Shown here: one piece after another, positions 36,000 to 63,232 of the stretch
How the letters are laid out: every line of letters starts with the position of its first letter
Position numbering within the stretch: position 1 is the first letter of the stretch
Origin: a virus
DNA length: 64,000 nucleotides
Virus record (IMG/VR): IMGVR_UViG_3300020465_000011
Location: 1 to 64,000 of that record
Reading direction: 5' to 3' (one strand)
Made by a program: the position numbers and the translations under genes
Notes under the pieces: model-generated
What the model saw: the letters and a program-made list of their open reading frames with translations, nothing else
What the model was told of the DNA's origin: nothing
Databases searched by the model: none

Positions 36000-37574
36000 A
36001 TGAATTTTAACGATATGAATTGGCACCGTTTTTCAAATGGTGTGCTTGAATGGAACGATCATAATGCTAATCAGATAAAATCTTTATTAGAACAGTCTGG
36101 TGGCTGTGGTATGTGTTTAGCTAAGTTCAAACAAGTAACATTACATTTAGGCACAGGTATGACCCATTCATGCCATCACCCGTCACCACATAAAATTCCT
36201 CGAGAAGAAATTGATAAAAATCCAGCGGCACTATTTAATACATTGCATCTTAAAAAAGCAAGAAAGCAAATGCTTAATAATGAAAAGCCAAGTGAATGTG
36301 ACTATTGCTGGAGAGTAGAAGCTGAAGGGCAAAAAAGTGATAGATTTTTTAAAAGTTTAGAAAATTGGGCCAGTGATTATTATGATGAAATAATTCAGTT
36401 AAATGGCAGTGAAGACATTTACCCAAGTTATTTAGAAGTAAGTTTTAGTAATGTTTGTAACATGAAATGTACATATTGTGGTCCTGAATTTAGTAGTAAA
36501 TGGGTAGAAGAGTTAAAACAATATGGTCCTATTCACTTAGCAACTAATACTGCAAAACAAGAAGTATTACATGCACAACACGATCTTCAAAATCTAACAT
36601 TTAAAAATCGAGAGTTTAATCCATACATTGATGCGTTTTGGAAATGGTTTCCAAAAGCTCTTCCTCATTTAAGACACTATCGTATTACAGGTGGTGAACC
36701 TTTAATGAGTAAAGAAACTTTTAGAACTATGAAATATCTAATTGAAAATCCAAATACCGAAATGGAATTTTCAGTTAATAGTAATCTTAGTGTCCCAGAT
36801 AAATTATGGGATGAATTTATTAAACTGTTAACTGAAATGAGAGATAAAGAAGTTGTTAAAAAAATTACTGTTTATACTAGTATTGAAGGTTGGGGAGAAC
36901 GTGCAGAGTATGCAAGAACAGGACTAAATTTTAATTTATTAAAATCTCGTGCTGAGCAAATTGCTCAAATGGATAATATTAGAATATCAGTGATGTCAGC
37001 ATTTAACGTATTAAGTATTACTAGTTTTAAACCATTATTAGAATGGATATTAGATCTCAAAAGAAAATATACTGTAAATGATACCAGTGAAACTGTTATT
37101 ATGCAAAAAACTGGATATGAAAATAGTACTGGAACAATGGATGAAATTCTTGCTCATAGAAAACGCAATCATTCACATACAATTACAGTTAGTATAGATA
37201 TTCCATATTTGAGATGGCCAGAATGGATGGACGTACACTTTTGCACAGAAGAATTGTTTACCAAGCATTTGTTACCAGCAATGAAATTTATGGCTGATAA
37301 TAATCCATCTAGTGTATGGAGTACAGAAATTGGATTTTTAAATGCCGAAGTTGAAAAATTAAAACGTGTTGTTATGCACCGTGCTTATTATAATCAAAAG
37401 AAAAAACCTGAACGCGAAGGTCATGATGATATTAGAGAAGGACGAGCAAAATTTTATGATTATATCAATGAAATGGATAATCGTAGAGGAACAAACTTTT
37501 TAGAAGTTTATCCAGAGATGAAAAATTTTTATAATACTTGTAAAGAAGCAAGAGAAACGTTTAACAATGTCTGA
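36000..37574 (+). CDS. Radical SAM enzyme with N-terminal twitch-type cluster domain (1)
   Basis: A 524-residue radical S-adenosylmethionine enzyme. The canonical CxxxCxxC that binds the reactive 4Fe-4S cluster is C153-NMK-C157-TY-C160. The SAM-binding GGEP follows in RITGGEPLMS. Ahead of the core is a cysteine-rich domain (C36, C39, C58 in SCHHP, C100 and C103 in CDYCW) that should hold an auxiliary cluster. This order, auxiliary domain first, is known from uncharacterised twitch-domain radical SAM proteins of marine phages. Substrate unknown. It opens a coupled series of related genes and overlaps the next by 8 nt. Confidence 0.88.
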   Translation: MNFNDMNWHRFSNGVLEWNDHNANQIKSLLEQSGGCGMCLAKFKQVTLHLGTGMTHSCHHPSPHKIPREEIDKNPAALFNTLHLKKARKQMLNNEKPSECDYCWRVEAEGQKSDRFFKSLENWASDYYDEIIQLNGSEDIYPSYLEVSFSNVCNMKCTYCGPEFSSKWVEELKQYGPIHLATNTAKQEVLHAQHDLQNLTFKNREFNPYIDAFWKWFPKALPHLRHYRITGGEPLMSKETFRTMKYLIENPNTEMEFSVNSNLSVPDKLWDEFIKLLTEMRDKEVVKKITVYTSIEGWGERAEYARTGLNFNLLKSRAEQIAQMDNIRISVMSAFNVLSITSFKPLLEWILDLKRKYTVNDTSETVIMQKTGYENSTGTMDEILAHRKRNHSHTITVSIDIPYLRWPEWMDVHFCTEELFTKHLLPAMKFMADNNPSSVWSTEIGFLNAEVEKLKRVVMHRAYYNQKKKPEREGHDDIREGRAKFYDYINEMDNRRGTNFLEVYPEMKNFYNTCKEARETFNNV

Positions 37575-39036
37575 TCCTCATGATTATAAAAAGAATATAC
37601 TAGATACAAAAAGCAAAACTTTTTGTGGAGCAAAATGGTATAATGCTACAATCTGGTTAGGACATGGTGCAACTACTAGTTGTCATCACCCACCTCCTCA
37701 TAAAATTGATCCTGAAGAAGTTAAAAAAGATCCTAGTGCGTTACACAATACAACTTATAAAAAACTTGTAAGAAAAGAAATGCAAGAAGGTGTTCAATGT
37801 AAAGAATGCGAATACTGTTGGAAGATTGAAAATTTAGAGCAAGACTTAATAAGTGATAGAGTTTATAAAAGTAACATATATGATGATGAAAAGCTACAAG
37901 AAGCATTTGACTCCAATTGGAGGAAGAGTTTTAATCCTATTAATTTAGAAATTGCATTTGATGCCAACTGTAATTTTGCATGTAGTTATTGCAATGCTGG
38001 GTTTAGTACTACATGGGCACATGATGTTAAAAAGAACGGACCGTACAAAGATTTGCTTAGTGACGGTTGGGGTGCATTTGCAACTGAAGGTAATTGGGCT
38101 CAGCCGTATGGTTTAAAAAATGAAGGTAATCCATATATTGAAGCATTTTGGAAATGGTGGGAAAGTGACTTACAGTATTCATTGAATGAACTTCGTGTTA
38201 CTGGAGGAGAAGCAACTGTTAGTAAAGATTTTTGGAAACTAGTTAATTGGTTTGAAAAGAATCCAGGGTGTAAGGTAAATTTAGCAGTAAATACAAATCT
38301 AGGAATTAAAAAAGACAGGTTAAAAAAACTTATTAATAGTAGTAAATTTATTAGAAAGTTAGACATATATTCTAGTAACGAAAGTTTTGGACCACAGTCA
38401 GAATATATACGTGATGGTTTAATATGGAAAGATTGGTTTGAAAATTCTGAAACATTGTTAACTGAATCTAATGCAGGTTATCATGTTATGCTAACACTAA
38501 ATGCATTATGTTTAGGAAGTTTGGATAAATTTCATGAAGCTATATTTGAATTAAAAAGTAAAACAGGTAAGAATATATATTTGAGTTATAATATATTACG
38601 ATTTCCTAGTTTTCAAAGTATTACAACATTACCTAAACATATTAGAGATGAGAGGTCTGAATATTATCAAAAATGGCTAGATAAAAATAAACAACATTTG
38701 AATAGACATGAAGTTGATGGAATGGACAGAACAATCAGCTACATAAAAAATGTTGACGAAGGACATAGTGTAAAAGAACTAAGCGACTTATCTTGTAGAC
38801 AAAATGACTTCTTTAATTTTTATAGTCAATATGACGTAAGAAGAAACAAAGTATTTGCAAGAGCATTTGGTGACTGGCCTGATCTTATTGAATGGTATAC
38901 ATCTTTAGCAGGAAATATTAATCACCGCGATATATCTGAACCTATTGAAGCAAATGCAGTTGATTGGGGTAAAGATATATATGATGGCGTAATAGAAGAT
39001 GCCATTAAGCAAGGTTTAGTCAATGGACCGGCGTAA
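37567..39036 (+). CDS. Radical SAM enzyme with N-terminal twitch-type cluster domain (2)
   Basis: A 489-residue paralogue of the previous enzyme. The radical SAM motif is C135-NFA-C139-SY-C142. The auxiliary domain has C20, C39 (SCHHPPPHKI, nearly the same as SCHHPSPHKI in gene 1), C78, C81 and C84. The SAM-binding segment reads TGGEA rather than GGEP. The close match of the SCHHP segment suggests a recent duplication from gene 1. The C-terminal third is unlike known domains. It overlaps both neighbours, so expression is coupled. Confidence 0.87.
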   Translation: MSDPHDYKKNILDTKSKTFCGAKWYNATIWLGHGATTSCHHPPPHKIDPEEVKKDPSALHNTTYKKLVRKEMQEGVQCKECEYCWKIENLEQDLISDRVYKSNIYDDEKLQEAFDSNWRKSFNPINLEIAFDANCNFACSYCNAGFSTTWAHDVKKNGPYKDLLSDGWGAFATEGNWAQPYGLKNEGNPYIEAFWKWWESDLQYSLNELRVTGGEATVSKDFWKLVNWFEKNPGCKVNLAVNTNLGIKKDRLKKLINSSKFIRKLDIYSSNESFGPQSEYIRDGLIWKDWFENSETLLTESNAGYHVMLTLNALCLGSLDKFHEAIFELKSKTGKNIYLSYNILRFPSFQSITTLPKHIRDERSEYYQKWLDKNKQHLNRHEVDGMDRTISYIKNVDEGHSVKELSDLSCRQNDFFNFYSQYDVRRNKVFARAFGDWPDLIEWYTSLAGNINHRDISEPIEANAVDWGKDIYDGVIEDAIKQGLVNGPA

Positions 39037-39919
39037 AATACTACTAGTATCTCCTACTTTAAGTGATTCTTTATTTTTTTGTCAAGTAACAGGACATCAT
39101 TTAAATGTTCTCTGGCCGGGCTGGTGGAACGGCTTAAATGAAAAATATGGTTCATTTGAGATTATAACCAAATTTGGTGTAACACGTGGTGATGATGCTA
39201 ATAAAATTTACGGATCGTGGAACAAGGAAGGCTGTTTACAATTTCTAGAAGATATGAAGAACTATGATGGTTATCTTACTAGTATAAAGTTAGATAGCTA
39301 TAACTATCTTTATAATAATGGTTTACTAGATAATCTTAAAGAAGCAAGTAAGGATTGTTATCATATTTTACTTTTTAAAAGAGATTTTATAGATACAGTT
39401 CTAAGTTTATGTTTACTTAATAGTGAAGAACAAAGTGTAGATGATCCTAATGATGGTTTAAAACGTCGTCGATGGTACGAATCAACAGATCCTGTCACAG
39501 TTACTAAAGAACATGTAATAGATCAATTTTATTATCTGTTTGAAACATACGCAGATTTTATCCTAGGAAATAAATTTGGTATCAAATTTGATGAAATAAT
39601 GTTTTCTGAAGAGCTTAGAAATGTAAAAACATTTAAACAGATAATGGAAAAAACAAAACTTGCCAAGGACTGGAATTATGAAGGTATTCCAATGGCTGGC
39701 CCGGACCCTAGTATTAGTTTCAGTAAGCAAGGTTATATTTCAAACTACTATCAAACAGTATTTTGGATCATTGAATTACTTCAATTAAATATAGATAATA
39801 TACATGTCCCAACTAATCAGCCTGAATTTAAAAATATTGATTGGGGGATTGATTTGAGTCAACAAGTTTCTATATTATCTAGATGGGTAAAACAGGCTCG
39901 AGATTGGAATAATAAATGA
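39023..39919 (+). CDS. Hypothetical protein, possibly sulfotransferase-like
   Basis: A 298-residue protein set between radical SAM genes and overlapping the upstream one by 14 nt and the downstream one by ATGA. The segment CYHILLFKRDFIDTVLSLCL recalls the YLVRDPRDVVVS element of PAPS-dependent sulfotransferases, and SPTLSDSLFF near the N terminus stands where a phosphate loop would be, but the loop is not convincing. I therefore leave the function open. The tight packing implies that it acts on the same substrate as its neighbours. Confidence 0.6.
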   Translation: MDRRKILLVSPTLSDSLFFCQVTGHHLNVLWPGWWNGLNEKYGSFEIITKFGVTRGDDANKIYGSWNKEGCLQFLEDMKNYDGYLTSIKLDSYNYLYNNGLLDNLKEASKDCYHILLFKRDFIDTVLSLCLLNSEEQSVDDPNDGLKRRRWYESTDPVTVTKEHVIDQFYYLFETYADFILGNKFGIKFDEIMFSEELRNVKTFKQIMEKTKLAKDWNYEGIPMAGPDPSISFSKQGYISNYYQTVFWIIELLQLNIDNIHVPTNQPEFKNIDWGIDLSQQVSILSRWVKQARDWNNK

Positions 39920-41349
39920 CTGTATTGCATAAAGTTCCTAAAGGACTTGATAAAAAAACAGAAGAGACTTTACCAGAGACAAATGTAGAACGATTTAATC
40001 GTATGAAAAAGAATAAAAGTTTCTGTGCGGCTCCATGGTTACATATTCATAGTTTACCACAAGGTTATATTATGCCTTGTTGTATGTGGGATTATGGCAT
40101 ATTTAAAGAAAACCCATATCGATATGGAAATATGCGTGATGTTAAAAATATAAATGAAGCTTTAAACAGTGACCAATTTAAAAAACTTAGACTTCAAATG
40201 ATGGCAGGAGAAAAAATTAAAGGTTGTATCAGATGTTACGATAGAGAAGTTCATGCTCCTCCCAGTGGGAAAGAAGCCGAACAATATTCGATGCGAGGTT
40301 GGTTCAATGAATACTTCTTTAGAAGAAGCCATGAATATCATGACATGGCAGATTACGTTATGGGAACACAACCAGACGGAACAATACATGATATAAAGAT
40401 ACGTTATCTAGACATTAGGTTTGGAAATATTTGTAATCTTAGATGTAGAATGTGCGGACATGGATTGAGTAGTACATGGTATGACGAAGAAAAGAAAATA
40501 AATCCACATCGAGGCCTTCAAAAATTTATTCATACTGATTGTTATGATAAGATAGAGGAATATCTTCCTCATGTAACAGAAATATACTTTGCTGGCGGTG
40601 AGCCATTTTTATATCCTGAACATTTAAAAATGTTGGATAAATTAATTGAGGTAGGAAATACTAATTGTAGTATAAAATATAATACCAATCTAACTACTTT
40701 AAAGTATAAGAAAAGAAGTTTACTAGATGTGTGGAAACGATTTCCAAATGTTCATATAGGTGCCAGTATAGACGGTATGGGAGATACCGTCGAATATATT
40801 AGAACAAATATGAATTGGAAAGATTTTAAAAATAACTTTCAGCGTGTCAAAGAGGAATGTCCACATGTTAGTATTACCGCTTCACCTACAATAGGAGTGT
40901 TCAATATTGAAACATATCCTGAATTTGATAGATTTCAAATTGAAAATGGGTGGACCAATGGACACCACGCAATTAACTATATTATGGCACCCGATGAGAT
41001 GAATATATATTTCATGCCAACTTGGTATAAGGATAAGTTAATAAAAATATACGAAGAGCATCGCGATTGGATATACAATACTATAGGCGTTGCAAATAAA
41101 CATGCACTAAGAATAAATGAAATAATAAAAAGATTACAAATAGAACATGCAACTCCTGAAGAGGTTGATAAACATATGGCTCGTTTGCATCATAAACTTG
41201 AATTATATGATGATACAGCAGGATTAAATTGGAAGAAATCAATGCCTCATCTGGACGCTATGCTCAAAATGCATTTTTATAAAAGACAACAAAATCTCCA
41301 AGATTCTGAATTAGCTGAACTTCCTAAAGGCTGGGGAGAAGTTAAGTGA
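39916..41349 (+). CDS. Radical SAM enzyme with N-terminal SPASM/twitch-like domain (3)
   Basis: A 477-residue enzyme. Core motif C173-NLR-C177-RM-C180, with GGEP in IYFAGGEPFLYPEHLK and a later SIDG motif (GASIDGMGDTVEYIR). The N-terminal domain reads FCAAPWLHIHSLPQGYIMPC: C37, C55 and C56, then C104 and C107, the SPASM-like CxxPW...PCC...CxxC arrangement placed before the core instead of after it. Ala-Ala of CAAPW is coded GCGGCT. Substrate unknown. Its stop lies in a GTGA overlap with the next radical SAM gene. Confidence 0.88.
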   Translation: MTVLHKVPKGLDKKTEETLPETNVERFNRMKKNKSFCAAPWLHIHSLPQGYIMPCCMWDYGIFKENPYRYGNMRDVKNINEALNSDQFKKLRLQMMAGEKIKGCIRCYDREVHAPPSGKEAEQYSMRGWFNEYFFRRSHEYHDMADYVMGTQPDGTIHDIKIRYLDIRFGNICNLRCRMCGHGLSSTWYDEEKKINPHRGLQKFIHTDCYDKIEEYLPHVTEIYFAGGEPFLYPEHLKMLDKLIEVGNTNCSIKYNTNLTTLKYKKRSLLDVWKRFPNVHIGASIDGMGDTVEYIRTNMNWKDFKNNFQRVKEECPHVSITASPTIGVFNIETYPEFDRFQIENGWTNGHHAINYIMAPDEMNIYFMPTWYKDKLIKIYEEHRDWIYNTIGVANKHALRINEIIKRLQIEHATPEEVDKHMARLHHKLELYDDTAGLNWKKSMPHLDAMLKMHFYKRQQNLQDSELAELPKGWGEVK

Positions 41350-42545
41350 AGAAATATTGTGTAATGCCATGGATAGGACTTGAAGTTAATAACAATGGAA
41401 ATTTGAGACCGTGTTGTGTTTATAAAGATCAAATCAGAGATGAACAGGGCAAAACTTTTAATATTAATAATAACACAATAGAAGAATATGCTAACAGTAA
41501 ATCAATGATTGAACTTAAAGAGAAACTTATAAATGGACAAGAGCCATGGGGCTGTATTAAATGTTATGAAGAAGAAAGTCTAAATGTTGCTAGTCTGCGT
41601 CAACGAAAAAACAAGTATTATAAAGATTATATTACAAAATCAGTAGAAGCTGTAGACTTGATTTCTGTTGATTTAAAATTAAGTAACTTGTGTAATCAAA
41701 AATGTGTAATTTGTAATACTGGTGCTAGTAGTTTATTAGCTTCTGAAAATAAACAAATTCTGCCAGAGCTGAACATCGACTGGAATAAAACACAAGATCT
41801 ATATCATTGGTATAAAAAAGATGAAGTATGGAGTGAGCTAGAAGCAAAAACACAAGCAACACAACATTTTGATTTTTTTGGCGGTGAGCCATGGCTTATA
41901 AAAAAGCAATGGGAATTTCTTAAACATCTAATAGATTCAGATAGATGTAAATGGGTATCATTGAATTATGCTACCAATGGTAGCATACATGATGATGCAT
42001 ACTTCACTGAATACTTTTCTAAATTTAGAGATGTTTCTATATTATATAGTGGTGATGGAATTGAAAATTCGTTTGAATACAATAGATTTCCAGGAAAATG
42101 GGAAACATATAAAAACAATGTTCTTAAAGCTAAAAAGTTTCAAGTTGATAATAGTATTTCATGGATGGGAGTTGCATATACAGTAAGTGCATACAGTATA
42201 CATAATGTCATTGAGGCCATGGATTTTTATACAAAAAACAATGTTGAAGTATGGTTTAATATGGTAAATGAAGATGAACTGTGTGCAGGAGTATTACCTG
42301 ATGATGTTAAAAAAGCAATACGGAAAAATATTAAAGAAGGATGGCGATCAGATTTTACTACACTAGATAAAAATATTGATACTGCATTTTTTGAACAACA
42401 ATTAGATAGAGAAGTTAGTAGTAACTGGAAAAAAGTATTTGTGAAGAAAACTAATGCACGTGACAAATTTAGAGGAGTTGATTTTACTAAGTTAATTCCA
42501 ATGGCTTCGCTTAAAGAATTTTTAGGCAGGGACGCATCATGGTAG
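41346..42545 (+). CDS. Radical SAM enzyme with N-terminal SPASM/twitch-like domain (4)
   Basis: A 399-residue enzyme with GTG start inside the GTGA overlap. Core motif C116-NQK-C120-VI-C123, SAM-binding FFGGEPWLIKKQW. The N-terminal auxiliary domain begins KKYCVMPWIGLEVNNNGNLR, with C5, C23, C24, C70 and C73. Closest in layout to gene 3. Overlaps the next gene by 7 nt. The reaction cannot be assigned: enzymes with this domain order include uncharacterised phage proteins only, as far as I know. Confidence 0.87.
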   Translation: MKKYCVMPWIGLEVNNNGNLRPCCVYKDQIRDEQGKTFNINNNTIEEYANSKSMIELKEKLINGQEPWGCIKCYEEESLNVASLRQRKNKYYKDYITKSVEAVDLISVDLKLSNLCNQKCVICNTGASSLLASENKQILPELNIDWNKTQDLYHWYKKDEVWSELEAKTQATQHFDFFGGEPWLIKKQWEFLKHLIDSDRCKWVSLNYATNGSIHDDAYFTEYFSKFRDVSILYSGDGIENSFEYNRFPGKWETYKNNVLKAKKFQVDNSISWMGVAYTVSAYSIHNVIEAMDFYTKNNVEVWFNMVNEDELCAGVLPDDVKKAIRKNIKEGWRSDFTTLDKNIDTAFFEQQLDREVSSNWKKVFVKKTNARDKFRGVDFTKLIPMASLKEFLGRDASW

Positions 42546-43819
42546 AGCCTCAATATAATATATGCAGTAAAATGTGGACAGATTTGAATATAAATTTTCA
42601 AAAGAAAACTTTCCAACATTGTTGTAAACAGGTGCATCAACCAATATCATTGATTGAGATTGATAAATTAAAGGCAGATGTATTTGATTTTCATGAACGT
42701 AATGTAAGAAATAGAAAGATCAGCATTGATCATAACATGTTACCTCCTGATTGTCAATGGTGTATATCTACTGCTCCTAATAATATTAAAAAAGTTTGGA
42801 ACATATGGGAAGACGAAGATCTAGATGAATATCAGAAAACCAATGATCTTGCAACTCTTAAAAAAACTTCTAGAACTGCATACATTGATTTAGATATTGG
42901 AAATAGTTGTGATTTAGCATGTGTCTACTGCGGGCCATGGAGTAGCACAACATGGGCTAAAGAATTAGGTCAAATTAAATCTGCTAGAAATTTCATTGAC
43001 CCGGAATGGAAGGAAAAAATACTAGAGAACTTATCTCTTTATTTGTTAAAGTTAGACAGTACTGAAAAAATTGTTTTTAATATACTAGGCGGAGAACCGT
43101 TGTTAATTGTTGATACATATGAAATTATTTCATATCTAAGTAATAACTGTAAGCACTTTAAACAAAAACCTATACTAATGATTACAACAAATTTAAATTG
43201 TAAACCTGCAAGTTTAAAAAAGTTATTAGAAACTTTAGAAGAAACTAAGGACATTTTTGAATGGAACATAAGTGTCAGTATAGAAGATATTAATATACGT
43301 GCAGAACAAGTAAGATATCATTTAGATTTTAATAAATTTGAAAATAATCTTAAAGCTATTAAAAATGCACCAGATAAGATATATGTAACAGCTACTTTAA
43401 GTATTTTTAGTTTTCCTAACTTTCATGAGTTCATTAATTGGATTTTTTGGGTCCTAGGGGTTGAAAACTATAATAAGACTTGGGATTTTACTTTAAACAA
43501 TGTACAAGAAGGATTCACTGACTTAGCGTATTGTCCTCGCGAGTTAATAGATATAGATAAAATTAAAAACACATACAATACACTTATCAAAGACATAACA
43601 GATAGAAACGAACATAAAGTTAGAAATGTTATGGATCATCTAGATAATATGTATCAACGTTCAGGAACTAAGAAACCAGGAAGAGAGTTTTATGGTTTCT
43701 GGGACAAAATGAGTAAAAGAAGAAATGTAGATTATTTTACAATTTATCCATTGACGTCAATGAAATTTCCATGCAACTTGGAAGATAATAAGTTAGTAAC
43801 CAATGATCAGATTTCATGA
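42539..43819 (+). CDS. Radical SAM enzyme with N-terminal twitch-like domain (5)
   Basis: A 426-residue enzyme. Core motif C124-DLA-C128-VY-C131 in IGNSCDLACVYCGPWSSTTW, SAM-binding LGGEPLLI. The N-terminal cysteines are C9, C28, C29, C72 and C75 (CQWC). The CGPWSSTTWAKEL stretch resembles gene 1 (CGPEFSSKWVEEL), so the two are related. It overlaps the next radical SAM gene by 17 nt. No substrate information. Confidence 0.86.
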   Translation: MVEPQYNICSKMWTDLNINFQKKTFQHCCKQVHQPISLIEIDKLKADVFDFHERNVRNRKISIDHNMLPPDCQWCISTAPNNIKKVWNIWEDEDLDEYQKTNDLATLKKTSRTAYIDLDIGNSCDLACVYCGPWSSTTWAKELGQIKSARNFIDPEWKEKILENLSLYLLKLDSTEKIVFNILGGEPLLIVDTYEIISYLSNNCKHFKQKPILMITTNLNCKPASLKKLLETLEETKDIFEWNISVSIEDINIRAEQVRYHLDFNKFENNLKAIKNAPDKIYVTATLSIFSFPNFHEFINWIFWVLGVENYNKTWDFTLNNVQEGFTDLAYCPRELIDIDKIKNTYNTLIKDITDRNEHKVRNVMDHLDNMYQRSGTKKPGREFYGFWDKMSKRRNVDYFTIYPLTSMKFPCNLEDNKLVTNDQIS

Positions 43820-44960
43820 ATTAGAAAGAATTCATATTGAGTTAAGCTCTGCTTGTAATGCGGCCTGCCCTGCATGTCCAAGAAATGTCGACGGAGGATA
43901 TACTATACCATGGTTAACAACACGAACTTTATCCTTTGAAGATTTTATAAAAATATTCACCAGTGAAGTTTGTCAACAACTTAAAACAATTTTAATGTGT
44001 GGAAATTATGGTGATCCTATTTACTGTAAAGATTTGCCAAAAATATTAGAATACTTGTGGAAGGAAAATACAAGACTACATGTACATGTTCATACCAATG
44101 GTGGTGTACGAAGTCCGGAGTGGTGGAGTGCTTTAGCAAAATCTAATCCTAAGTTATTGGTTGTTTTTAGTATAGACGGTCTAGAAGATACAAATCACAT
44201 ATATAGAAGAAATGTTAACTGGCAGAAACTAAGAGAAAATATTATTGCGTATATAAAAGTTGGAGGTCATGCAATATGGGAATTTCTTATTTTTAAACAC
44301 AATCAACACCAAATCAATGATGCTAGACAGATGTCAATTGAATTAGGGTTTATAGATTTTAAAGCTAAACGTGCATTTGGATTTGAAAACGTTGCTAATA
44401 GCTATAATTCAATGAGGGTGTTAGATAATATAGGAAACGTAGAGTATTTTATACAGCCTCCAGATAACGAAGAATTTAGAAATAAAAACTTTCAAACAGA
44501 AGATACAGAGCGATATGATTATTCGGCTAATAATAGTTTACCATTGGATGCTTATGAAGTAGCTTGGAGTCAACGTGATAATAATTTTAATTATGTGCTT
44601 AATGCTGAACTTAAAGATTACGAAAAACTAGATGGTACTGAAATATCATGCATGACTAAAAATTCTAAAGAAATATATATTGACAGTAATGGAAATGTAC
44701 ACCCTTGCTGTTTTTTAGGAATAGGCAGTCAAAATGTTACACTTGCAAGTGACACTATGCAATACCATAAATGGCTTAAAGAGAATATAGAGTTAGATAA
44801 AACTAATGCTAAAAATTATTCACTTAGGCAAATATTAGATACTAACTTTCTATCTAAGATAGAAAACACATGGAACAAAACACACAAAGAAGGAAGATTA
44901 ATGTGTTGCACTAGAATGTGTATAAGAAATAAAAGTGCAACAGATAAATTATACGTATGA
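43803..44960 (+). CDS. Radical SAM/SPASM enzyme (6), canonical domain order
   Basis: A 385-residue enzyme with the core motif at the very N terminus: C18-NAA-C22-PA-C25-PRN. The SAM-binding segment is CGNYGDPI (GDP instead of GGEP), and FSIDGLED follows. The C-terminal SPASM domain has cysteines at about 282, 301-302, 367-368 and 372 (SCMTKNSKEIYIDSNG, HPCCFLG, MCCTRMC). It is thus built in the usual order, unlike genes 1-5. SPASM enzymes modify peptides or small carbohydrates (the BtrN type lacks part of the domain). Coupled by ATGA to the methyltransferase gene. Confidence 0.88.
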   Translation: MIRFHELERIHIELSSACNAACPACPRNVDGGYTIPWLTTRTLSFEDFIKIFTSEVCQQLKTILMCGNYGDPIYCKDLPKILEYLWKENTRLHVHVHTNGGVRSPEWWSALAKSNPKLLVVFSIDGLEDTNHIYRRNVNWQKLRENIIAYIKVGGHAIWEFLIFKHNQHQINDARQMSIELGFIDFKAKRAFGFENVANSYNSMRVLDNIGNVEYFIQPPDNEEFRNKNFQTEDTERYDYSANNSLPLDAYEVAWSQRDNNFNYVLNAELKDYEKLDGTEISCMTKNSKEIYIDSNGNVHPCCFLGIGSQNVTLASDTMQYHKWLKENIELDKTNAKNYSLRQILDTNFLSKIENTWNKTHKEGRLMCCTRMCIRNKSATDKLYV

Positions 44961-46573: not shown

Positions 46574-47635
46574 ATGGATTTATCCAATAATTTAAAAAAC
46601 AGATATTGCCCTAAACTTTTTACCTTTTTTGAAGTTAGTTGGAATGGCGACTGTTGGCTTTGTTGTCCTGCATGGTTACCTAACAAAATAGGAAATATAT
46701 TAACCCAGAGTTTTGATGAAATATGGAATGGTGATACAGCAAAGGAACTAAGAAATCAAGTGTTTACTGGAAATTGGAACTATTGTCAACATGAAGTGTG
46801 TCCTCAAATTGTGCAAAACCAGTTACCAGATTTAAGTGAAGCGGTTGCTAATAGTCCTGTTAAAAAACAACAAACACATGTTGAGACTCTTCCAACTATA
46901 ATTAATTTCAGTGAAGATGAAAGCTGTAATTTGCAATGCCCTAGCTGTAGACTTTATAAGAAAATGTGGAAAAAAGGCACACCCCAATATAATTCACGCA
47001 AGAGAATTAATGACAATGTACAAGAAATTTTCTTTAAGACTCCTACAGACAGATACTTTGAAATAAATGTTACCGGAAGTGGCGATCCTTTTGGTAGTAT
47101 CATTTATAGAGAAATGTTACAGTCAATTGATGGCAGAAAATTTCCAAATTTAAAAGTTAACTTAAACACAAATGCAGTGATCTTTACTCCTAAAAATTGG
47201 CATAAGATATATAAAATACATAACAATTTGCAAAACTGTAGAATAAGTTTTGATGCAGGAACAAAACATACGTACGAAACAAAAACTCGAATTGGTGGTA
47301 ATTGGGATATATTATTAAAGAACTGTAGGTTTTTAAATGAAAGATCAAAAGAATTTGAAAATTTTAATTTACACTTTGACTTTGTAGTACAATATGACAA
47401 CTATCATGAAATGAAAGATTTTGTTAAATTAATATTAGATAACTTTGATAATGCACATAGTATACATTTTTCAAAAATAATTGATTGGAAGACTTGGAGC
47501 CCCGATAAATACAATTCTAAAGCAGTTTGGAAAGAAACACATCCAAATCATCATGATTTCCTAGAGCATTTAGCTGATGATATTTTAAACCACAAATTGG
47601 TTTTCCTAGGTAATTTATATCAATATAGAAAGTAA
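46574..47635 (+). CDS. Radical SAM enzyme with N-terminal twitch-like domain (7)
   Basis: A 353-residue enzyme. Core motif C118-NLQ-C122-PS-C125. The SAM-binding segment is VTGSGDPFGS, a GDP variant as in gene 6. The N-terminal auxiliary domain starts YCPKLFTFFEVSWNGDCWLC, with C12, C27, C30, C31, C71 and C76, followed by GNILTQSFDEIWNGD, the GNL...EIWN pattern usual just after an SPASM PCC. It therefore combines the N-terminal cluster of genes 1-5 with the GDP-type core of gene 6. Last radical SAM gene of the first block. Confidence 0.87.
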   Translation: MDLSNNLKNRYCPKLFTFFEVSWNGDCWLCCPAWLPNKIGNILTQSFDEIWNGDTAKELRNQVFTGNWNYCQHEVCPQIVQNQLPDLSEAVANSPVKKQQTHVETLPTIINFSEDESCNLQCPSCRLYKKMWKKGTPQYNSRKRINDNVQEIFFKTPTDRYFEINVTGSGDPFGSIIYREMLQSIDGRKFPNLKVNLNTNAVIFTPKNWHKIYKIHNNLQNCRISFDAGTKHTYETKTRIGGNWDILLKNCRFLNERSKEFENFNLHFDFVVQYDNYHEMKDFVKLILDNFDNAHSIHFSKIIDWKTWSPDKYNSKAVWKETHPNHHDFLEHLADDILNHKLVFLGNLYQYRK

Positions 47636-55935: not shown

Positions 55936-56891
55936 TGGAATACAATTATTATTCACAAGACAAAGTAGACGAAATAGCTAAAAAGTATCATTGGGTTAAT
56001 GGTCTAGATGAATATTTAATACGTACTGGCTCTAAGCATTTAGATAAGTTTACTACTTTTCGTAATGCAATATTTTATGGCAATCCTTATAAAATAAAAG
56101 AATTACTATTAGATGAAATAAATCGCGGTCCTAATACATTAACTGAAGAATTTGTCAATATTATATTACATGGACACATTGACTGGACTAAATGGATTAA
56201 TCATAAAAAATTAATTAATTATTTTGCATATTGTATTGACGAGCCGTTATTTGCAATTATTAATAGCTGGAGCGATCGCTATGGAGGTGATGTTGTTAAT
56301 ATCAATGATCACTTTAGCAGAGGACAAATGCAAAGTAAAATGTGGATGTTAGATGAACTTACTAATATTGTAGAAGAAGGCAATATGGGTAATGTGCTTA
56401 TGTACGGTGGTTGGTATAATACATTTGCGTATTTCTTATTTGAACGTTTTAATGTTAAACAAATCTATAGTTTAGATCTAGATCCTAACTGTTGGGAAAT
56501 AGCTGATAACTTTAATGCTGAACATTGTTATAAACAAAATTGGAAATTTAAAGCCGCCACAGCAGATGTAAATGCATTAGAATGGAGTACTGATCGTACA
56601 GTATCGTTTGATGTTGATAGACCTAATTTAAAACCTACTTCTATTACATATAGACCTAACATTATTATTAATACAAGTTGTGAACATATGAGCGATGAAT
56701 GGTTTTATAATTTGCCAAAAGGCATGCCTGTGTGTTTGCAAACAAATGATTATTTTAAGAATGATCAACATACTAATTGTGTAAGCAGTATAGCAGAAGC
56801 TAAAAAGAAATATAAATTCAGTGAATATGTTTATGCAGGAGAATTAGAAACATTCTTATACAAAAGGTTTACTTTAATTGGAATTGTTTGA
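55935..56891 (+). CDS. Putative class I methyltransferase
   Basis: A 318-residue protein. The segment GNVLMYGGWYNTFAYFLFER followed by NVKQIYSLDLDPNCWEIADN corresponds to motifs I and II of SAM-dependent methyltransferases, with GGWYNT replacing the usual G-x-G-x-G loop and an acidic DLD at the end of strand 2. NIIINTSCEHM fits motif IV. The N-terminal 130 residues are helical and unfamiliar. The variant loop lowers certainty. Its end overlaps the next gene by 14 nt. Confidence 0.65.
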   Translation: MEYNYYSQDKVDEIAKKYHWVNGLDEYLIRTGSKHLDKFTTFRNAIFYGNPYKIKELLLDEINRGPNTLTEEFVNIILHGHIDWTKWINHKKLINYFAYCIDEPLFAIINSWSDRYGGDVVNINDHFSRGQMQSKMWMLDELTNIVEEGNMGNVLMYGGWYNTFAYFLFERFNVKQIYSLDLDPNCWEIADNFNAEHCYKQNWKFKAATADVNALEWSTDRTVSFDVDRPNLKPTSITYRPNIIINTSCEHMSDEWFYNLPKGMPVCLQTNDYFKNDQHTNCVSSIAEAKKKYKFSEYVYAGELETFLYKRFTLIGIV

Positions 56892-57483
56892 TAAATGGCC
56901 TATAGGCAGAGATGCTCATCTTGCTGGGCAATCAGAAACTGTAGATGGTACTGTTTATAACTATAACAATTTAGGCTGGCGTGATGCAGAGTTTACAGGT
57001 GAAATAGGTATAGTAGGAGATAGTTTTGTTTTTGGAATAGGTACTACTCATGCATTCCCACATATACTTAAAGTAGACAATTTGGGCATGCCTTCTGCTA
57101 GTAACGATAGAATAGTTAGACATGCAATACAGTATATTAGAAACTATGAACCACATACTGTTATTGTGTGTTGGACATACGGATACAGAAGAGAATGGAT
57201 TAAACCCTCCGGGGCACCATATAACTTTAAACGTTTAAACAAAGAATTGAAGCCTATAGACGAGCACCTAGCTGAGTTACAAAATCATGAATATGACAAT
57301 TATAATTATTATAAAAACAAATTATTAATTGAATCGTTTTGTGCAGTAAATAAAGTTAAGTTAATACAAATAGATAACCATTATATTCCAAATGACGCTG
57401 AAGGAACAGATAATAAGCACCCAGGACAAAACTGGCACAATAGAATGGCTAAAGAAGTAAAGAAATTAATTAATGCTGAATAA
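56878..57483 (+). CDS. SGNH/GDSL-like hydrolase
   Basis: A 201-residue protein with a TTG start inside the preceding gene. The esterase blocks are visible: GIVGDSFVFGIG with nucleophile Ser49, NLGMPSASNDRI (block with Gly70 and Asn76), and a C-terminal DNKHPGQNWHNRMA where Asp178 and His181 would complete the triad. Such enzymes add or remove acyl groups from sugars. No signal peptide is seen, so it acts in the cytoplasm. Coupled to an 87-residue unknown by an 11-nt overlap. Confidence 0.75.
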   Translation: MELFDKWPIGRDAHLAGQSETVDGTVYNYNNLGWRDAEFTGEIGIVGDSFVFGIGTTHAFPHILKVDNLGMPSASNDRIVRHAIQYIRNYEPHTVIVCWTYGYRREWIKPSGAPYNFKRLNKELKPIDEHLAELQNHEYDNYNYYKNKLLIESFCAVNKVKLIQIDNHYIPNDAEGTDNKHPGQNWHNRMAKEVKKLINAE

Positions 57484-57736
57484 TGTAAGTTGGGGAGCAA
57501 ATAAATTAACTGTAGAAGATTTATCTACACGACAGTTACAACGTGAAAGCTCTAGAGCTTTGGCTAGTGGTGCTATTGTTGCCACGTCTGCAAACCTAAC
57601 TAAGTATAACAAACAGGCTCCTCATAACAGTCATCTATGGTATAGAGCTGTTATTGAAGATTATGTAAAACAATACGGTGGCTTGCCAAGTAAAACAGGC
57701 CCTGGACAAAGTGTAAAACTGATACTGGAGGAATAA
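57473..57736 (+). CDS. Hypothetical protein
   Basis: An 87-residue protein between the SGNH hydrolase and a methyltransferase, overlapping both. A Ser/Ala-rich helix (LQRESSRALASGAIVATSAN) is followed by PHNSHLWYRAVIEDYVKQYG and GLPSKTGPGQ. No known motif. It is small enough to be an accessory factor or a modified peptide, but there is no leader-core pattern to support the latter. Confidence 0.65.
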   Translation: MLNNVSWGANKLTVEDLSTRQLQRESSRALASGAIVATSANLTKYNKQAPHNSHLWYRAVIEDYVKQYGGLPSKTGPGQSVKLILEE

Positions 57737-58407
57737 TGAATAGAAAAATACGTGACGCACTAGAAATGTTTTGTGTAGAAACGTTTGGCACTCAACCAAA
57801 TTTAGATGAGCTAGAACCGTTAGTTAATATGTTAGACAAACATGTATTAACAAGGTATTTTGGCAATGAAGGTAATTGGAAGCCAGATAATAAAAGATTT
57901 ACAGCAAGTGGTAGTGATTTAATTGCCAAGGTAAATGCATTAAACCCTGAACGGGTACTAGATATAGGCTGTGGATACAACTTACTTAAAGGAAAGATAC
58001 TAAATCTATGGGGTATAGATCCATACAATAGTAATGCGGATCAAATGATAGACATTATGGATATGGAAAACATATATGATGTTAAAACTGGCAGATATGG
58101 TTATGATGTAGTATTATGTTTAGGTAGTATTAACTTTGGTAGCGAAGAAGATATTAAAGAAAAAATAGCAAAAGCAGTAAGTCTATGTCGACTTGACGGA
58201 CATATTTTTTGGAGGGTTAACCCAGGTATAACACATACAAAAGATGATGCTGAATGGATAGACTTCTTTGAATGGTCACCCGAAAAGTTAGAAGCGTTTG
58301 CAGAGCAACACGATTGCGATTGCGTCGATGTACAAAAGGATCGTTGGCGTGACGATGACCAAGGATTAAGATATTATGCTCATTGGATTCGGCGAAGAAG
58401 TATATAA
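57736..58407 (+). CDS. Class I methyltransferase, tandem family member 1
   Basis: A 223-residue SAM-dependent methyltransferase. Motif I is RVLDIGCGYNLLKGKILNLW followed by GIDPYNSNADQMIDIMDME, and CLGSINFGSEED is the post-IV segment. The same three blocks recur in the proteins at 60023, 61444 and 62594, so these four are paralogues. TAATG start overlap with the 87-residue gene; the start of the next gene lies 32 nt inside it. Acceptor unknown. Confidence 0.82.
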   Translation: MNRKIRDALEMFCVETFGTQPNLDELEPLVNMLDKHVLTRYFGNEGNWKPDNKRFTASGSDLIAKVNALNPERVLDIGCGYNLLKGKILNLWGIDPYNSNADQMIDIMDMENIYDVKTGRYGYDVVLCLGSINFGSEEDIKEKIAKAVSLCRLDGHIFWRVNPGITHTKDDAEWIDFFEWSPEKLEAFAEQHDCDCVDVQKDRWRDDDQGLRYYAHWIRRRSI

Positions 58408-59710
58408 ACAAGAACCATTTCCATACAGAATATGGGAAGGTAATTTTCTACCCAATGATTTGTATAAAGAATTAAAGCAGTTAGTTTATGAATTTGAACC
58501 AACTAAAGAAACTTTATTAAATGCAAATGAAGATGTGTATCCATATGGGCAAACACATCTTTGTCCTAATTTAAATGGTTTTAGAGATTTATGGATTATG
58601 CCAGAGCATAAAAATTGGTTAGCAGATAAAATATCATGGCCAAAAAATATTACACCAATTATTGATGTAAGTATGCATATAGACAGTGAAGGGTTTTATC
58701 AAAAAGCACACAGAGATTTAAAACCTACACAAAGCCCTGCAGGATATGGAACATTACAAATATATTTTGGTAATGAAGAAGATGAAACAACAGGCGCCTG
58801 GGTATTGGACGATGAACACAATAAAATAGAACAAGTGCCTTATGCAGAAAATACAGCATGGGCATTTTTAGCAACAAGGAATAGTTGGCATAGTGTAGAT
58901 ACTATTAATAAACCTATTAATAGACGCAGTATCATGATTAATGTACGAGGCGATCTAAGTAATCGTAGTACTACAAAAACAACTAATTTTAATTTTGTTA
59001 AACATAATCCTAGGAAATGGAAATCATTTAGAGATCATACTCGAGTAGATTTTTGTATTACAACGTATTGTCAAAGTAAATGTCCTACTTGTCCTAGAAC
59101 TAATGCAGAAACACTTGAACTAGCAGAGTTTATAACATTACAACACATGCCTTATTCAGTTTGGTATGGTGTTATGGACAAAGTTGATTGGAGTAGAAAA
59201 GAAATACAGTTTTGTGGTGAACATGGTGATCCAATGATGCACCCTGATATAGAAAAGTTTATATTATCAAGTGCAGAACGTGCATGGCTAACTACAGTAA
59301 ATACAAACGGAGCTCTTCGTAATAAAAAATGGTATGAAGAAATATACGATAAAGTAGAAGATTGTGATTACGGAGAATTAAGTTTTGTATTTGCCATTGA
59401 TGGATTAACACAAGAAACAAATGAAAAATATAGAATAGATGTTAATTTTAAAAAAGCCTGGGAAAATTTCATGACAGTAGCAGAAAATCATAGTAGACTA
59501 ACATATTGGGACTTTCTAGTATTTGAGCATAACTGGCATGAATTAGAAGAAGTTATACGCATTGCAAGAGACCTAGAAGTTAACTTAGATATTAAAGTTA
59601 ACAGAGGAGATTATCAATGTTTAAAAAGCAACGAAGGTAAACAACACGTAAAAAACATATTAGGTATAGATGTAGATGCTGAAGGACAACAAATAGGCAA
59701 ACTACAATGA
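58376..59710 (+). CDS. Fusion of a 2OG-Fe(II) dioxygenase and a radical SAM enzyme (8)
   Basis: A 444-residue two-enzyme fusion. Residues 1-195 form a prolyl-hydroxylase-like dioxygenase: His112-R-Asp114 (KAHRDLKP), distal His172 (NSWHSVD) and Arg183/184 (NRRSIMINV). Residues about 220-430 are a radical SAM core: C232-QSK-C236-PT-C239-PR, SAM-binding CGEHGDPMMHP (GDP type, as in gene 6) and FAIDGLTQET. The auxiliary SPASM-like cysteines that gene 6 carries at its C terminus are absent here and occur instead in the next, ATGA-coupled ORF. An oxygen-using and an oxygen-sensitive centre in one chain is unusual. Confidence 0.87.
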   Translation: MLIGFGEEVYKQEPFPYRIWEGNFLPNDLYKELKQLVYEFEPTKETLLNANEDVYPYGQTHLCPNLNGFRDLWIMPEHKNWLADKISWPKNITPIIDVSMHIDSEGFYQKAHRDLKPTQSPAGYGTLQIYFGNEEDETTGAWVLDDEHNKIEQVPYAENTAWAFLATRNSWHSVDTINKPINRRSIMINVRGDLSNRSTTKTTNFNFVKHNPRKWKSFRDHTRVDFCITTYCQSKCPTCPRTNAETLELAEFITLQHMPYSVWYGVMDKVDWSRKEIQFCGEHGDPMMHPDIEKFILSSAERAWLTTVNTNGALRNKKWYEEIYDKVEDCDYGELSFVFAIDGLTQETNEKYRIDVNFKKAWENFMTVAENHSRLTYWDFLVFEHNWHELEEVIRIARDLEVNLDIKVNRGDYQCLKSNEGKQHVKNILGIDVDAEGQQIGKLQ

Positions 59711-60036
59711 AAAAAGTAATATGTGAAGCAATGAAAGGCAAAGAAATTGATATTGACATTAATTTTAAGATGTGGCCTTGTTGTATGTACCAAAATATCT
59801 TTGCTGAGTTTAAGAAAACTGGCGATCCGTATATAGATAGTTTGCCTAGCGATTGGAATGATGTAAGAGTACATGGTATAGATACAGTATTAAGACATTA
59901 TGCATATACAGATCACTTTAATGATAAAAGTTGGACAGACGAGAAAAAGTGTTCACCTGTGTGTTATGAAAAGTGTGCAGAAGGCGGAGAAATGCATTTA
60001 AATCATGCACCTATTAATCTAAATGATGAAAAATAA
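59707..60036 (+). CDS. Detached SPASM-like iron-sulphur domain protein
   Basis: A 109-residue protein whose start overlaps the radical SAM fusion by ATGA. Cysteines C6, C25, C26, C82, C86 and C90 (ICEAMKGKEIDIDINFKMWP then CC, and later CSPVCYEKC) follow the order of a SPASM domain: C-x(18)-CC, then a closing Cys cluster. In gene 6 the same order (SCMTKN, PCC, MCCTRMC) is fused behind the core. It probably binds the auxiliary 4Fe-4S cluster(s) of the upstream enzyme as a separate subunit. A frameshift or stop that split one gene is the other explanation. Confidence 0.75.
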   Translation: MKKVICEAMKGKEIDIDINFKMWPCCMYQNIFAEFKKTGDPYIDSLPSDWNDVRVHGIDTVLRHYAYTDHFNDKSWTDEKKCSPVCYEKCAEGGEMHLNHAPINLNDEK

Positions 60037-60910
60037 AGAATTACAAGCGAACGCACCAATTCGCGAAATGGGGAAATATAGATTTATTGATAAGCGAGAT
60101 ATTACATCTCGTTTTGATTTACCTCAATGGTGGCGTTTACCTGAAAAAGTAAGATGGTCTCATACAGCTCGTAACTATAGAAAAAGTTATGATGCATGGA
60201 CAGCAGAGTTTACATTTGATACACGCAAATATAGTGGACAATGGTTAGTAGATTATATTAATGCACGTGGTCCAAATGATTTAGTATTAGATGTAGGATG
60301 CGGATCAAATCCTTACAAAGGTAAGATTAAAAACTTAGTAGGTATGGAGCCAGGCGATTGGGGCAGTAAAGATTTACAATGGAATATTATGGACCATATA
60401 TCTAAGTACTTAGAAGATAACAAATGGGATTGGTTACTTGCAATAGGACCACTTAATCATGGCGACACACATGAAATAGAAGAAATGCTTAGTACCATGC
60501 ATGGTTGTCTTAGACCTGGCGGCAAGCTAGTCGGATTAGTTAAACCTGCTAATTGGGCACATTTAAAAGTTGACCCATGGAGAGAAAATAGAGGATTGTG
60601 TTATCCATGGCTTAAAGAAAGTATATATAAGTTTGCTGAAAGATGTGATTATGAACCAGATATGGAACCTGTGTTAGACGGAACAGATTTAGGCACACTT
60701 ACTGATGAAAAATTAGAAAAGTTAGCAAGTATAGAACCATGGGAACATACAATAAACGGAGCACCTCCAGTGGAGACTGAAGTGCAAGACGGAGACATGT
60801 ACTCGCAATGGGAAGCAGTACAACGAGAAATAAAACGCAGGAAAGACACACCAGACGAACCAAGTGAAATTATAAGACAACGTTGGTTCTGGATATGGAG
60901 TAAAAGATGA
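60023..60910 (+). CDS. Class I methyltransferase, tandem family member 2
   Basis: A 295-residue SAM-dependent methyltransferase: LVLDVGCGSNPYKGKIKNLV then GMEPGDWGSKDLQ (motifs I-II) and AIGPLNHGDTHEIEEML, with CLRPGGKLVGLVKP as motif VI. It has an N-terminal extension (about 80 residues, many Trp/Arg) and a long C-terminal tail with WEAVQREIKRRKDTPDE. The start is at ATG 60023; a second ATG follows directly. Overlaps the SPASM-like gene by 14 nt. Confidence 0.82.
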   Translation: MMKNKELQANAPIREMGKYRFIDKRDITSRFDLPQWWRLPEKVRWSHTARNYRKSYDAWTAEFTFDTRKYSGQWLVDYINARGPNDLVLDVGCGSNPYKGKIKNLVGMEPGDWGSKDLQWNIMDHISKYLEDNKWDWLLAIGPLNHGDTHEIEEMLSTMHGCLRPGGKLVGLVKPANWAHLKVDPWRENRGLCYPWLKESIYKFAERCDYEPDMEPVLDGTDLGTLTDEKLEKLASIEPWEHTINGAPPVETEVQDGDMYSQWEAVQREIKRRKDTPDEPSEIIRQRWFWIWSKR

Positions 60911-61298: not shown

Positions 61299-61454
61299 AT
61301 GAATACAATATTAAAAATACAAGCAATTATAATAGCAACATTAGTTATAATATATTTGTTAGGTTCATTAGCATATATGGGAATGGATTTAGAAATGATG
61401 TCCACAGATTATGAAATGGAAAAAGTAATGGCACAGAGGTTATATGACAACTGA
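61299..61454 (+). CDS. Small single-pass membrane protein (51 residues)
   Basis: A short gene filling the space between 60920-61294 and the next methyltransferase. ATG at 61299 is preceded by AGAGG at a spacing of 8 nt, and the TGA at 61452-61454 overlaps the next start by 11 nt. The product has one hydrophobic span (IIIATLVIIYLLGSLAYMGM, about residues 10-29) followed by an acidic, Met-rich tail (DLEMMSTDYEMEKVM). Function unknown. The ribosome site, transmembrane segment and packing support a real gene. Confidence 0.7.
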   Translation: MNTILKIQAIIIATLVIIYLLGSLAYMGMDLEMMSTDYEMEKVMAQRLYDN

Positions 61455-62376
61455 TTCAGAAAACTACATGAATACTATGTCACCGGTCAAACCTAAATTT
61501 GATCCAGAAGAAGTAGCCAATTGGCCTAGAGAACGTAGACTAGAACAGTTACGTGAACATTTTAGTACAGGACATAGTGATATTATACGTACTACTTCAC
61601 ATACTAAAACAGGAAGTGGCTTTCCAGCCGCCGAAATAATTAACGCAATGAATCCAGACCTTGTATTGGATTTAGGTTGTGGTTTTAGTTTATTTAAAGA
61701 ACACATACAGAATTTAATCGGAGTCGATTTATTGCCGTACGGTGATAGAGTTGATCTAGTAATGGATTGTGATGATGCACTTCGATTATTCAAAGACAAC
61801 AGCGTAGATGCAATACGCTGTGTAGGACCTTTTAACTTTGGCACACAAGAAGAACAAGAAGAACTTATCGGCTTGTGTTTTGCTAAGTTAAAGCCAGGAG
61901 GTCTAGTTTGTGGACATGCTCGCCCCGGTCGCCTCAGCGATGCAACAGGATTTAATGCAAGGGGCATTATACACTATCCATGGACAAGGACCGCGGTACA
62001 TGATTTTACCAGCCTGTTTAGCTGGGAACTTTGTGACCCGCATCTTAGCGTACCAGACTGGCAAAAAACTAGTAGTCATAGCTCTCCAATTATTACTGAA
62101 TGGACAGATCTTAGACAACTAGGTTGGCCACAGTTAAAAGATTACTTAAAGCGTTTTAATCCAGATGCTACACCTATTGATGATTTTAATAAATGGTTAG
62201 ATAGAGAACAAGACAATAGCGATATGTTAGATCCATTAGAGTATCAAGAAGGATTAGATCAAGCATTTGTTAAATGCCAAAATGAATGGTATAGGCGAAT
62301 GAAAGACGAACGTTATGACAGGCACATGCATGATGGTGTTAGGCCTCGTTATAATTGGTGGTGGAGGAAACCCTAA
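61444..62376 (+). CDS. Class I methyltransferase, tandem family member 3
   Basis: A 310-residue SAM-dependent methyltransferase: LVLDLGCGFSLFKEHIQNLI then GVDLLPYGDRVDLVMDCDD, CVGPFNFGTQEEQEEL, and FAKLKPGGLVCGHARPG. It is the clearest canonical member of the four-gene family. The region at 61910-62040 has visibly higher G+C than its surroundings. GCACAGAGG is the ribosome site. The end overlaps the next start (TAATG at 62374). Confidence 0.84.
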   Translation: MTTDSENYMNTMSPVKPKFDPEEVANWPRERRLEQLREHFSTGHSDIIRTTSHTKTGSGFPAAEIINAMNPDLVLDLGCGFSLFKEHIQNLIGVDLLPYGDRVDLVMDCDDALRLFKDNSVDAIRCVGPFNFGTQEEQEELIGLCFAKLKPGGLVCGHARPGRLSDATGFNARGIIHYPWTRTAVHDFTSLFSWELCDPHLSVPDWQKTSSHSSPIITEWTDLRQLGWPQLKDYLKRFNPDATPIDDFNKWLDREQDNSDMLDPLEYQEGLDQAFVKCQNEWYRRMKDERYDRHMHDGVRPRYNWWWRKP

Positions 62377-62597
62377 TGTACACAGTAGAATTTGAACATG
62401 ACACATTTGAAATTGTAGTATTATGTGATCAAGGAACCGATGACGATTTAAAAGTTGAAATAGAAAGTGATGCAGTTTTTATTTCACAATGGAATAGTGT
62501 ATTAAATGAAGAACAGAATATACGTATTTCGCCACAGATGTGGGACGAACTGTTATCAGCAGTTAAAAGTCCAGAAGGAGCATACATAAAAAGGTGA
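62376..62597 (+). CDS. Conserved phage hypothetical protein
   Basis: A 73-residue acidic protein (YTVEFEHDTFEIVVLCDQG at the start, then SDAVFISQWNSVLNEEQNIR and SPQMWDELLSAVKSPEGAYI). The start is ATG 62376, in a TAATG overlap with GGAGG at 62363-62367; the in-frame ATG at 62355 lies within the ribosome-site region of the previous gene. It resembles small proteins of T4-like cyanophages. Function unknown. Confidence 0.72.
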   Translation: MYTVEFEHDTFEIVVLCDQGTDDDLKVEIESDAVFISQWNSVLNEEQNIRISPQMWDELLSAVKSPEGAYIKR

Positions 62598-63232
62598 ACA
62601 ACAAAGGTATAGTAAAACGTCTTAAAGAACGTTTCGAACAGGAACATGAAGTACGCAAACGTAGTCTTGCGTTACATAGAACATTAAGCGGCCGCAAGTT
62701 AGCAGAAGAAATAACAGCAACTAATCCACAGTTAGTTTTAGATTTAGGTTGTGGTAGTAATGAGTTTAAAAAAGTTTGTCCTAATGTAATAGGAGTTGAT
62801 GTAGCAGAACTACCCGACGTTGATTTTAAAATGAGTATACATCAACTACACCTTAAAAAAATGTTTAAGGAAAGAACTGCTGATTGGATATTGTGCTTTG
62901 GTCCTTTTAACTATGGAGGTGCTAGTTGGGCAACTGAAATAGGAAATTGTATGAGATATTATCTTGCTGAACATGGTACAGTAGTATGTCATGTACATCC
63001 AACTAATAGTGAAATAGATTGGACAGAAGAAAATATTAATATATGGGGTAAAGAGTTTGGATTTAAAACTACTAGTGTTGAAGTAGGATACACTGATATT
63101 ATGACAATGTCAACCGAAGAATTAGATATACAACAAGAAGTAGCAGAACGCTCACCTGATATAGCATTAGAATTATCTTTGGGCAAAGATTTAATTAGAC
63201 CAATGATAGTATGGAGATGGGAACACGAATGA
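62594..63232 (+). CDS. Class I methyltransferase, tandem family member 4
   Basis: A 212-residue SAM-dependent methyltransferase with GTG start in a GTGA overlap. LVLDLGCGSNEFKKVCPNVI then GVDVAELPDVDF, and CFGPFNYGGASWATEIG, match the other three family members. It lacks their long tails and is the shortest copy. A GCGGCCGC octamer at 62688-62695 here codes Ser-Gly-Arg rather than alanines. Acceptor unknown. Confidence 0.8.
   Translation: MNNKGIVKRLKERFEQEHEVRKRSLALHRTLSGRKLAEEITATNPQLVLDLGCGSNEFKKVCPNVIGVDVAELPDVDFKMSIHQLHLKKMFKERTADWILCFGPFNYGGASWATEIGNCMRYYLAEHGTVVCHVHPTNSEIDWTEENINIWGKEFGFKTTSVEVGYTDIMTMSTEELDIQQEVAERSPDIALELSLGKDLIRPMIVWRWEHE

Follow-up and report, generated by a model that had tools for sequence, protein, structure and literature searches.

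The SPASM/twitch radical-SAM enzymes SkfB, BlsE, SuiB, and anSME share their radical-SAM core fold and a CxxxCxxC motif with the protein described here, in which a 2-oxoglutarate (2OG) dioxygenase is fused to a radical-SAM core. BlsE is the best PDB profile match of the radical-SAM half (E = 8.5e-5). Unlike these enzymes, the fusion carries an N-terminal 2OG domain and has its SPASM-like region encoded as a separate open reading frame (ORF). It also has GEHGDP (at residue 281) at the place where GGEP is the usual motif of radical-SAM enzymes. A second group of related proteins is the phage N_Twi_rSAM family (NF033640). Five other radical-SAM genes of the same phage island are full or near members of this family, unlike the fusion, which gave no hit to the family model (>170 bits needed) and in which the N-terminal twitch domain is absent. 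For the other half, the P4H-like 2OG-Fe(II) oxygenases of the Synechococcus phages ACG-2014f, S-SRM01, and S-H38 have a fold like that of the N-terminal domain; however, these are proteins of about 200 aa without a radical-SAM half.

Comparable gene neighborhoods occur in marine phages. In the cultured Pelagibacter phage Mosig EXVC030M (MT647606), a 112-aa ORF containing Cys residues comes next after the short radical-SAM ORF Mosig_00084 and overlaps it; hydroxylase/dioxygenase genes, a carbamoyltransferase, and a methyltransferase lie close by. This resembles the DNA studied here, except that all of the Mosig genes are separate. No significant similarity was detected between the Mosig 112-aa ORF and the 109-aa ORF that follows the fusion (E = 1.1). 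A jumbo cyanophage cluster of carbamoyltransferase, 2OGFeDO, and methylase genes offers a similar tailoring mix, again in separate genes, and it has been proposed to serve capsule decoration or to make a metabolite; a term search of that article found no mention of radical enzymes (PMC7824862). In pelagimyophages, the host-recognition island is hypervariable and carries glycosyltransferases together with radical-SAM cassettes (PMC7029224), and 12 radical-SAM genes have been recorded in one T4-like marine genome (PMC5332604).

The window, i.e., the whole stretch of 64,000 nucleotides that was analyzed, lies within a 68.5-kb virus record. Its T4-like features include a baseplate wedge gene (phrog_10646) and recombination genes of the gp46/47 type, whose gp46 homolog shares about 46% identity with its counterparts in cultured phages. 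The features discussed below are the following:

43803-44960, plus strand: paralogous radical-SAM protein of the same phage, 385 aa, with a SPASM-like domain in the same chain
57736-58407, plus strand: class I methyltransferase-like gene adjoining the fusion upstream, with a 32-nt overlap and a weak TehB/Methyltransf_23 match
58376-59710, plus strand: fusion ORF, 444 codons plus stop, in an uninterrupted single frame
58376..58954, plus strand: predicted N-terminal 2OG-Fe(II) dioxygenase domain, residues 1-193 (weak PF13640 match, fold, invariant residues)
58955..59026, plus strand: linker, residues 194-217 (24 codons), of low model confidence and fast-evolving
59027..59707, plus strand: radical-SAM core, residues 218-444 (PF04055, phrog_21308, Foldseek, invariant motif Cys)
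59707-60036, plus strand: 109-aa Cys-rich, putatively SPASM/twitch-like ORF overlapping the stop codon of the fusion (ATGA)

Seven other radical-SAM genes were identified at 36000-44960 and 46574-47635, six of them in a nearly unbroken tandem run. The island also includes a carbamoyltransferase, a GT8 glycosyltransferase, a PhyH-type dioxygenase, a cytidylyltransferase, and an NAD-dependent epimerase. The density of radical-SAM genes is high for a single phage fragment.

A first-pass annotation of this DNA had described a 444-residue chain with both domains and had named their motif residues; the reading frame, the residue positions, and the folds all agree with that description. The match to 2OG-FeII_Oxy_3 (PF13640) spans residues 104-190 (E = 1.3e-3) and scores 20.1 bits against a curated cut-off of 27, which is a family threshold and no defining feature of the 2OG-Fe(II) dioxygenase superfamily. 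Judged by its motif and predicted fold, the N-terminal half is a divergent member of this superfamily. The Radical_SAM match (PF04055) spans residues 228-395 (E = 5e-5), below the gathering cut-off, and phrog_21308 matches the core with E = 8e-18. Both domain assignments were accepted despite the low Pfam scores because they are supported by motif residues and folds. The HxD...H metal triad (H112, D114, H172) and the 2OG-binding basic residue of the RxS motif (R183-R184-S185) are invariant in the three phages with the 2OG domain, and the CxxxCxxC cluster motif (C232, C236, C239) is invariant in all 19 radical-SAM rows aligned.

In the AF2 model the radical-SAM core is confidently predicted (pLDDT mostly about 80-96, ~90 over most of the domain), and the 2OG domain is of moderate confidence with the strands of a double-stranded beta-helix visible. 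Foldseek retrieved PolD, Tpa1, and OGFOD1 for the N-terminal half, in agreement with a double-stranded beta-helix fold, and SkfB, BlsE, and SuiB for the C-terminal half, in agreement with a partial TIM-barrel core. The fold alignment of the 2OG half covers the window and one second lineage (contigs L003 and L004, see below), and searching PDB sequences with the 2OG profile returned chance hits only. The first-pass annotation had proposed structure prediction as a check of whether the two active sites face each other. The model predicts no such arrangement: residues 195-219 have pLDDT values below 50, falling to 26-37 in the core of the linker, and are predicted to be unstructured.

An IMG/VR scan revealed the same 2OG::radical-SAM chain in the two additional contigs L003 and L004, as a protein of 460 aa with 68% identity to that of the window. 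The two contigs, assembled separately, belong to separate IMG/VR records and are 99.74% identical over 11.7 kb; for this reason they were counted as one lineage with two occurrences. Between the window and L003, dN/dS (NG86) came to 0.23 in the 2OG part, 0.69 in the linker (37.5% identity), 0.12 in the radical-SAM part, and 0.04 in the 109-aa ORF that follows, values that are approximate because dS is high (1.3-1.7, about 1.5). Both halves are under purifying selection, with the linker relaxed. As the window is a metagenomic contig, an assembly join or a frameshift might have created the fusion artificially, an explanation that is barely credible because two contigs from other metagenomes share the fusion at this degree of divergence and dN/dS is well under 1 for both halves.

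Further fusions were sought with several queries. A scan of viral contigs with a profile of the 2OG alignment recovered the L003 and L005 contigs only, single-protein 2OG scans gave no new relatives, and the L003 fusion as query gave the same five contigs again; these scans use short peptide patterns, which distant relatives can escape. No confirmed relative of either half was detected in genome contigs, and nothing in the cultured-phage collection matched the 2OG half in sequence. It had been stated that no characterized enzyme of this arrangement was known, and none was found in the collections searched. The open-licence literature likewise yielded neither a 2OG-radical-SAM fusion nor a stand-alone SPASM protein. 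The domain fusion is real, conserved, and apparently undescribed within these collections and open-licence papers.

The fusion chain lacks a C-terminal auxiliary-cluster Cys domain, and the SPASM-like domain is found in the next ORF (59707-60036), a point that the first-pass annotation had missed. A profile built from this 109-aa ORF and its relatives (A3) hits many single-chain phage radical-SAM proteins in their C-terminal region, in most of them with E about 1e-10 to 1e-13. In the 385-aa paralog at 43803-44960, profile A1 matches residues 4-182 and A3 matches residues 280-375, the latter more weakly (E = 6e-5). Five Cys residues of the 109-aa ORF (C6, C25, C26, C86, C90) are invariant in five of five rows and C81 is present in four of five. 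No Pfam or NCBIfam match was found for this ORF, and its structure model gave no usable PDB fold match. The profile similarity to phage radical-SAM C-termini, together with the pattern and spacing of the Cys residues, suggests that it is SPASM/twitch-like.

Within the clade of the fusion the SPASM-like ORF is almost always separate, in most cases sharing 1-35 nt with the core gene; the SPASM-like domain is part of the same chain in 29 other distinct radical-SAM cores. Only cores of ≤256 aa were read as split, and the 34 rows classed as having the domain in the next ORF and no 2OG gene are an overcount, as they include cores of about 360 aa with a downstream single-chain radical-SAM gene and no lone SPASM ORF. 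Most of the split radical-SAM/SPASM relatives have no 2OG neighbor. The split genes provide a direct test of whether an auxiliary-cluster domain acts in trans. In contig L021 a 308-aa protein (4334-5257) that directly follows a split core/SPASM pair has its SPASM-like part ahead of the radical-SAM core; this reversed order shows that domain joins are fluid in these radical-SAM proteins. Flavodoxin genes (PF00258) were observed at two split loci, directly downstream in L007 (3996-4433) and nearby in L013 (6949-7374), and are plausible candidate electron donors.

The origin of the fusion can be approached through contig L005, in which the two halves are encoded as follows:

L005, 5986-6567: 2OG gene, separate ORF
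L005, 6564-7256: radical-SAM gene, separate ORF, with a 4-nt overlap with the 2OG gene

Identity to the window protein is about 54% in the 2OG half and 65% in the radical-SAM half. Contig L006 has a methyltransferase gene, then a radical-SAM gene (216 aa), and then a Cys-rich ORF, and the 2OG gene is absent; the methyltransferase is homologous to that of the window (40% identity, E = 2e-40). A methyltransferase-like neighbor is kept in L003, L005, and L006. In a tree of 78 radical-SAM cores the two fused proteins group together (100/91), and the next branches are L005 (100/100) and then L006 (100/97). The enclosing phage clade comprises 28 rows (100/98), nearly all of them short stand-alone radical-SAM cores, and its remaining members are radical-SAM enzymes without a fused 2OG partner. 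The simplest history consistent with these data is that a 2OG gene entered downstream of the methyltransferase gene and ahead of the radical-SAM gene, and that the in-frame joining took place later. Alternatively, fission may have occurred in L005, but the radical-SAM gene itself was ancestrally separate. The first-pass annotation had held that relatives with separate and distant halves would speak against the fusion. The halves are indeed separate in L005; however, they are not distant, being adjacent and overlapping, which favors a shared pathway over an obligatory bifunctional enzyme.

With an overlap of only 4 nt in L005, one small indel could join the genes. It is thus conceivable that the fusion is neutral or serves co-expression: a lost stop codon would have joined overlapping operon genes, leaving independent domains with different substrates and a join without catalytic meaning. 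The linker, disordered and relaxed, and the confinement of the fusion to one small clade are in keeping with this. On the other hand, the join has outlasted divergence to 68% protein identity at dS about 1.5, and adjacency is kept even where the genes are unfused, although neither of these points proves a shared substrate. We regard such a neutral or co-expression fusion as possible but rather unlikely.

Our preferred explanation, held with slightly better than even confidence, is a recent in-frame fusion of adjacent genes that gave a tailoring enzyme of a modification island with a separate auxiliary-cluster partner. Two neighboring genes would have been joined within the sugar/methyl/radical-SAM modification island that this T4-like marine phage carries, with an Fe(II)/2OG hydroxylase as the N-terminal domain. 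The radical-SAM core probably works with the separate 109-aa SPASM/twitch-like protein, which would supply an auxiliary Fe-S cluster and thereby complete the radical-SAM enzyme. Most likely, the enzyme tailors a single pathway product, probably a surface glycan or a peptide or glycan-linked group, whose synthesis would also involve the methyltransferases, glycosyltransferases, sugar-nucleotide enzymes, and carbamoyltransferase encoded nearby. Through the fusion, the hydroxylase and the radical enzyme of one pathway would stay close together and in a fixed ratio. We infer the identity of this product, as well as the activity of both domains, their participation in one pathway, and the binding of a cluster and of the fusion protein by the 109-aa protein.

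The first-pass annotation had read the fusion as a sign of two successive oxidations on a shared substrate. A substrate shared by both domains is plausible, since they belong to the same operon and the fusion has been retained. More tentatively, and with clear doubt, the system might be a two-chain, multi-metal enzyme in which O2-dependent and radical steps are coupled on one substrate and the auxiliary Fe-S subunit is encoded separately, within a clade that has a free-standing SPASM-type partner. Radical-SAM enzymes function inside aerobic cells, and the oxygen paradox of such a protein is therefore weaker than it appears. If true, this would be a natural case of O2-using and O2-sensitive iron enzymes on one polypeptide, and it would indicate with which partner enzyme and in which substrate pathway the radical-SAM genes of marine phages, so far poorly understood, may act.

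The tethering of an O2-using to an O2-sensitive half also raises the idea that the 2OG domain acts chiefly in aid of the radical-SAM domain, for example by using up O2 in its vicinity or by hydroxylating that domain or its partner. Its fold is like that of the protein prolyl hydroxylases Tpa1 and OGFOD1, and also like that of small-molecule enzymes. We consider this very unlikely: relatives manage without a 2OG domain, other hydroxylase genes stand alone in such a phage island (Mosig), and 2OG enzymes are in general slow consumers of O2 when substrate is absent.

The glycan assignment of the preferred tailoring role was weighed against DNA hypermodification, an alternative role suggested by the carbamoyltransferase. 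Host-surface glycans have been favored for pelagimyophages, in part because only one of >100 SAR11 genomes carries restriction-modification (PMC7029224). This argument concerns pelagimyophages, and the present phage, whose host may differ, may still use DNA hypermodification. Some split radical-SAM loci have no obvious glycan cluster around them, so the role of the radical-SAM pair may be unrelated to glycans.

Several other genes of the region were noted. Four methyltransferase-like genes surround the fusion (57736-58407, 60023-60910, 61444-62376, and 62594-63232); they have similar GCGxNxxK-type motifs and look like paralogs. Several radical-SAM genes have as neighbors ORFs that carry a GDS-like motif close to their start and by eye resemble SGNH hydrolases (56878-57483 in the window, which has no Pfam match, 4263-5264 in L006, and neighbors in L029 and L076). 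The start of a 4702-aa ORF (14837-28945) matches the phage virion structural family phrog_10938, and by its position this ORF resembles the VrlC gene adjoining the pelagimyophage host-recognition island.
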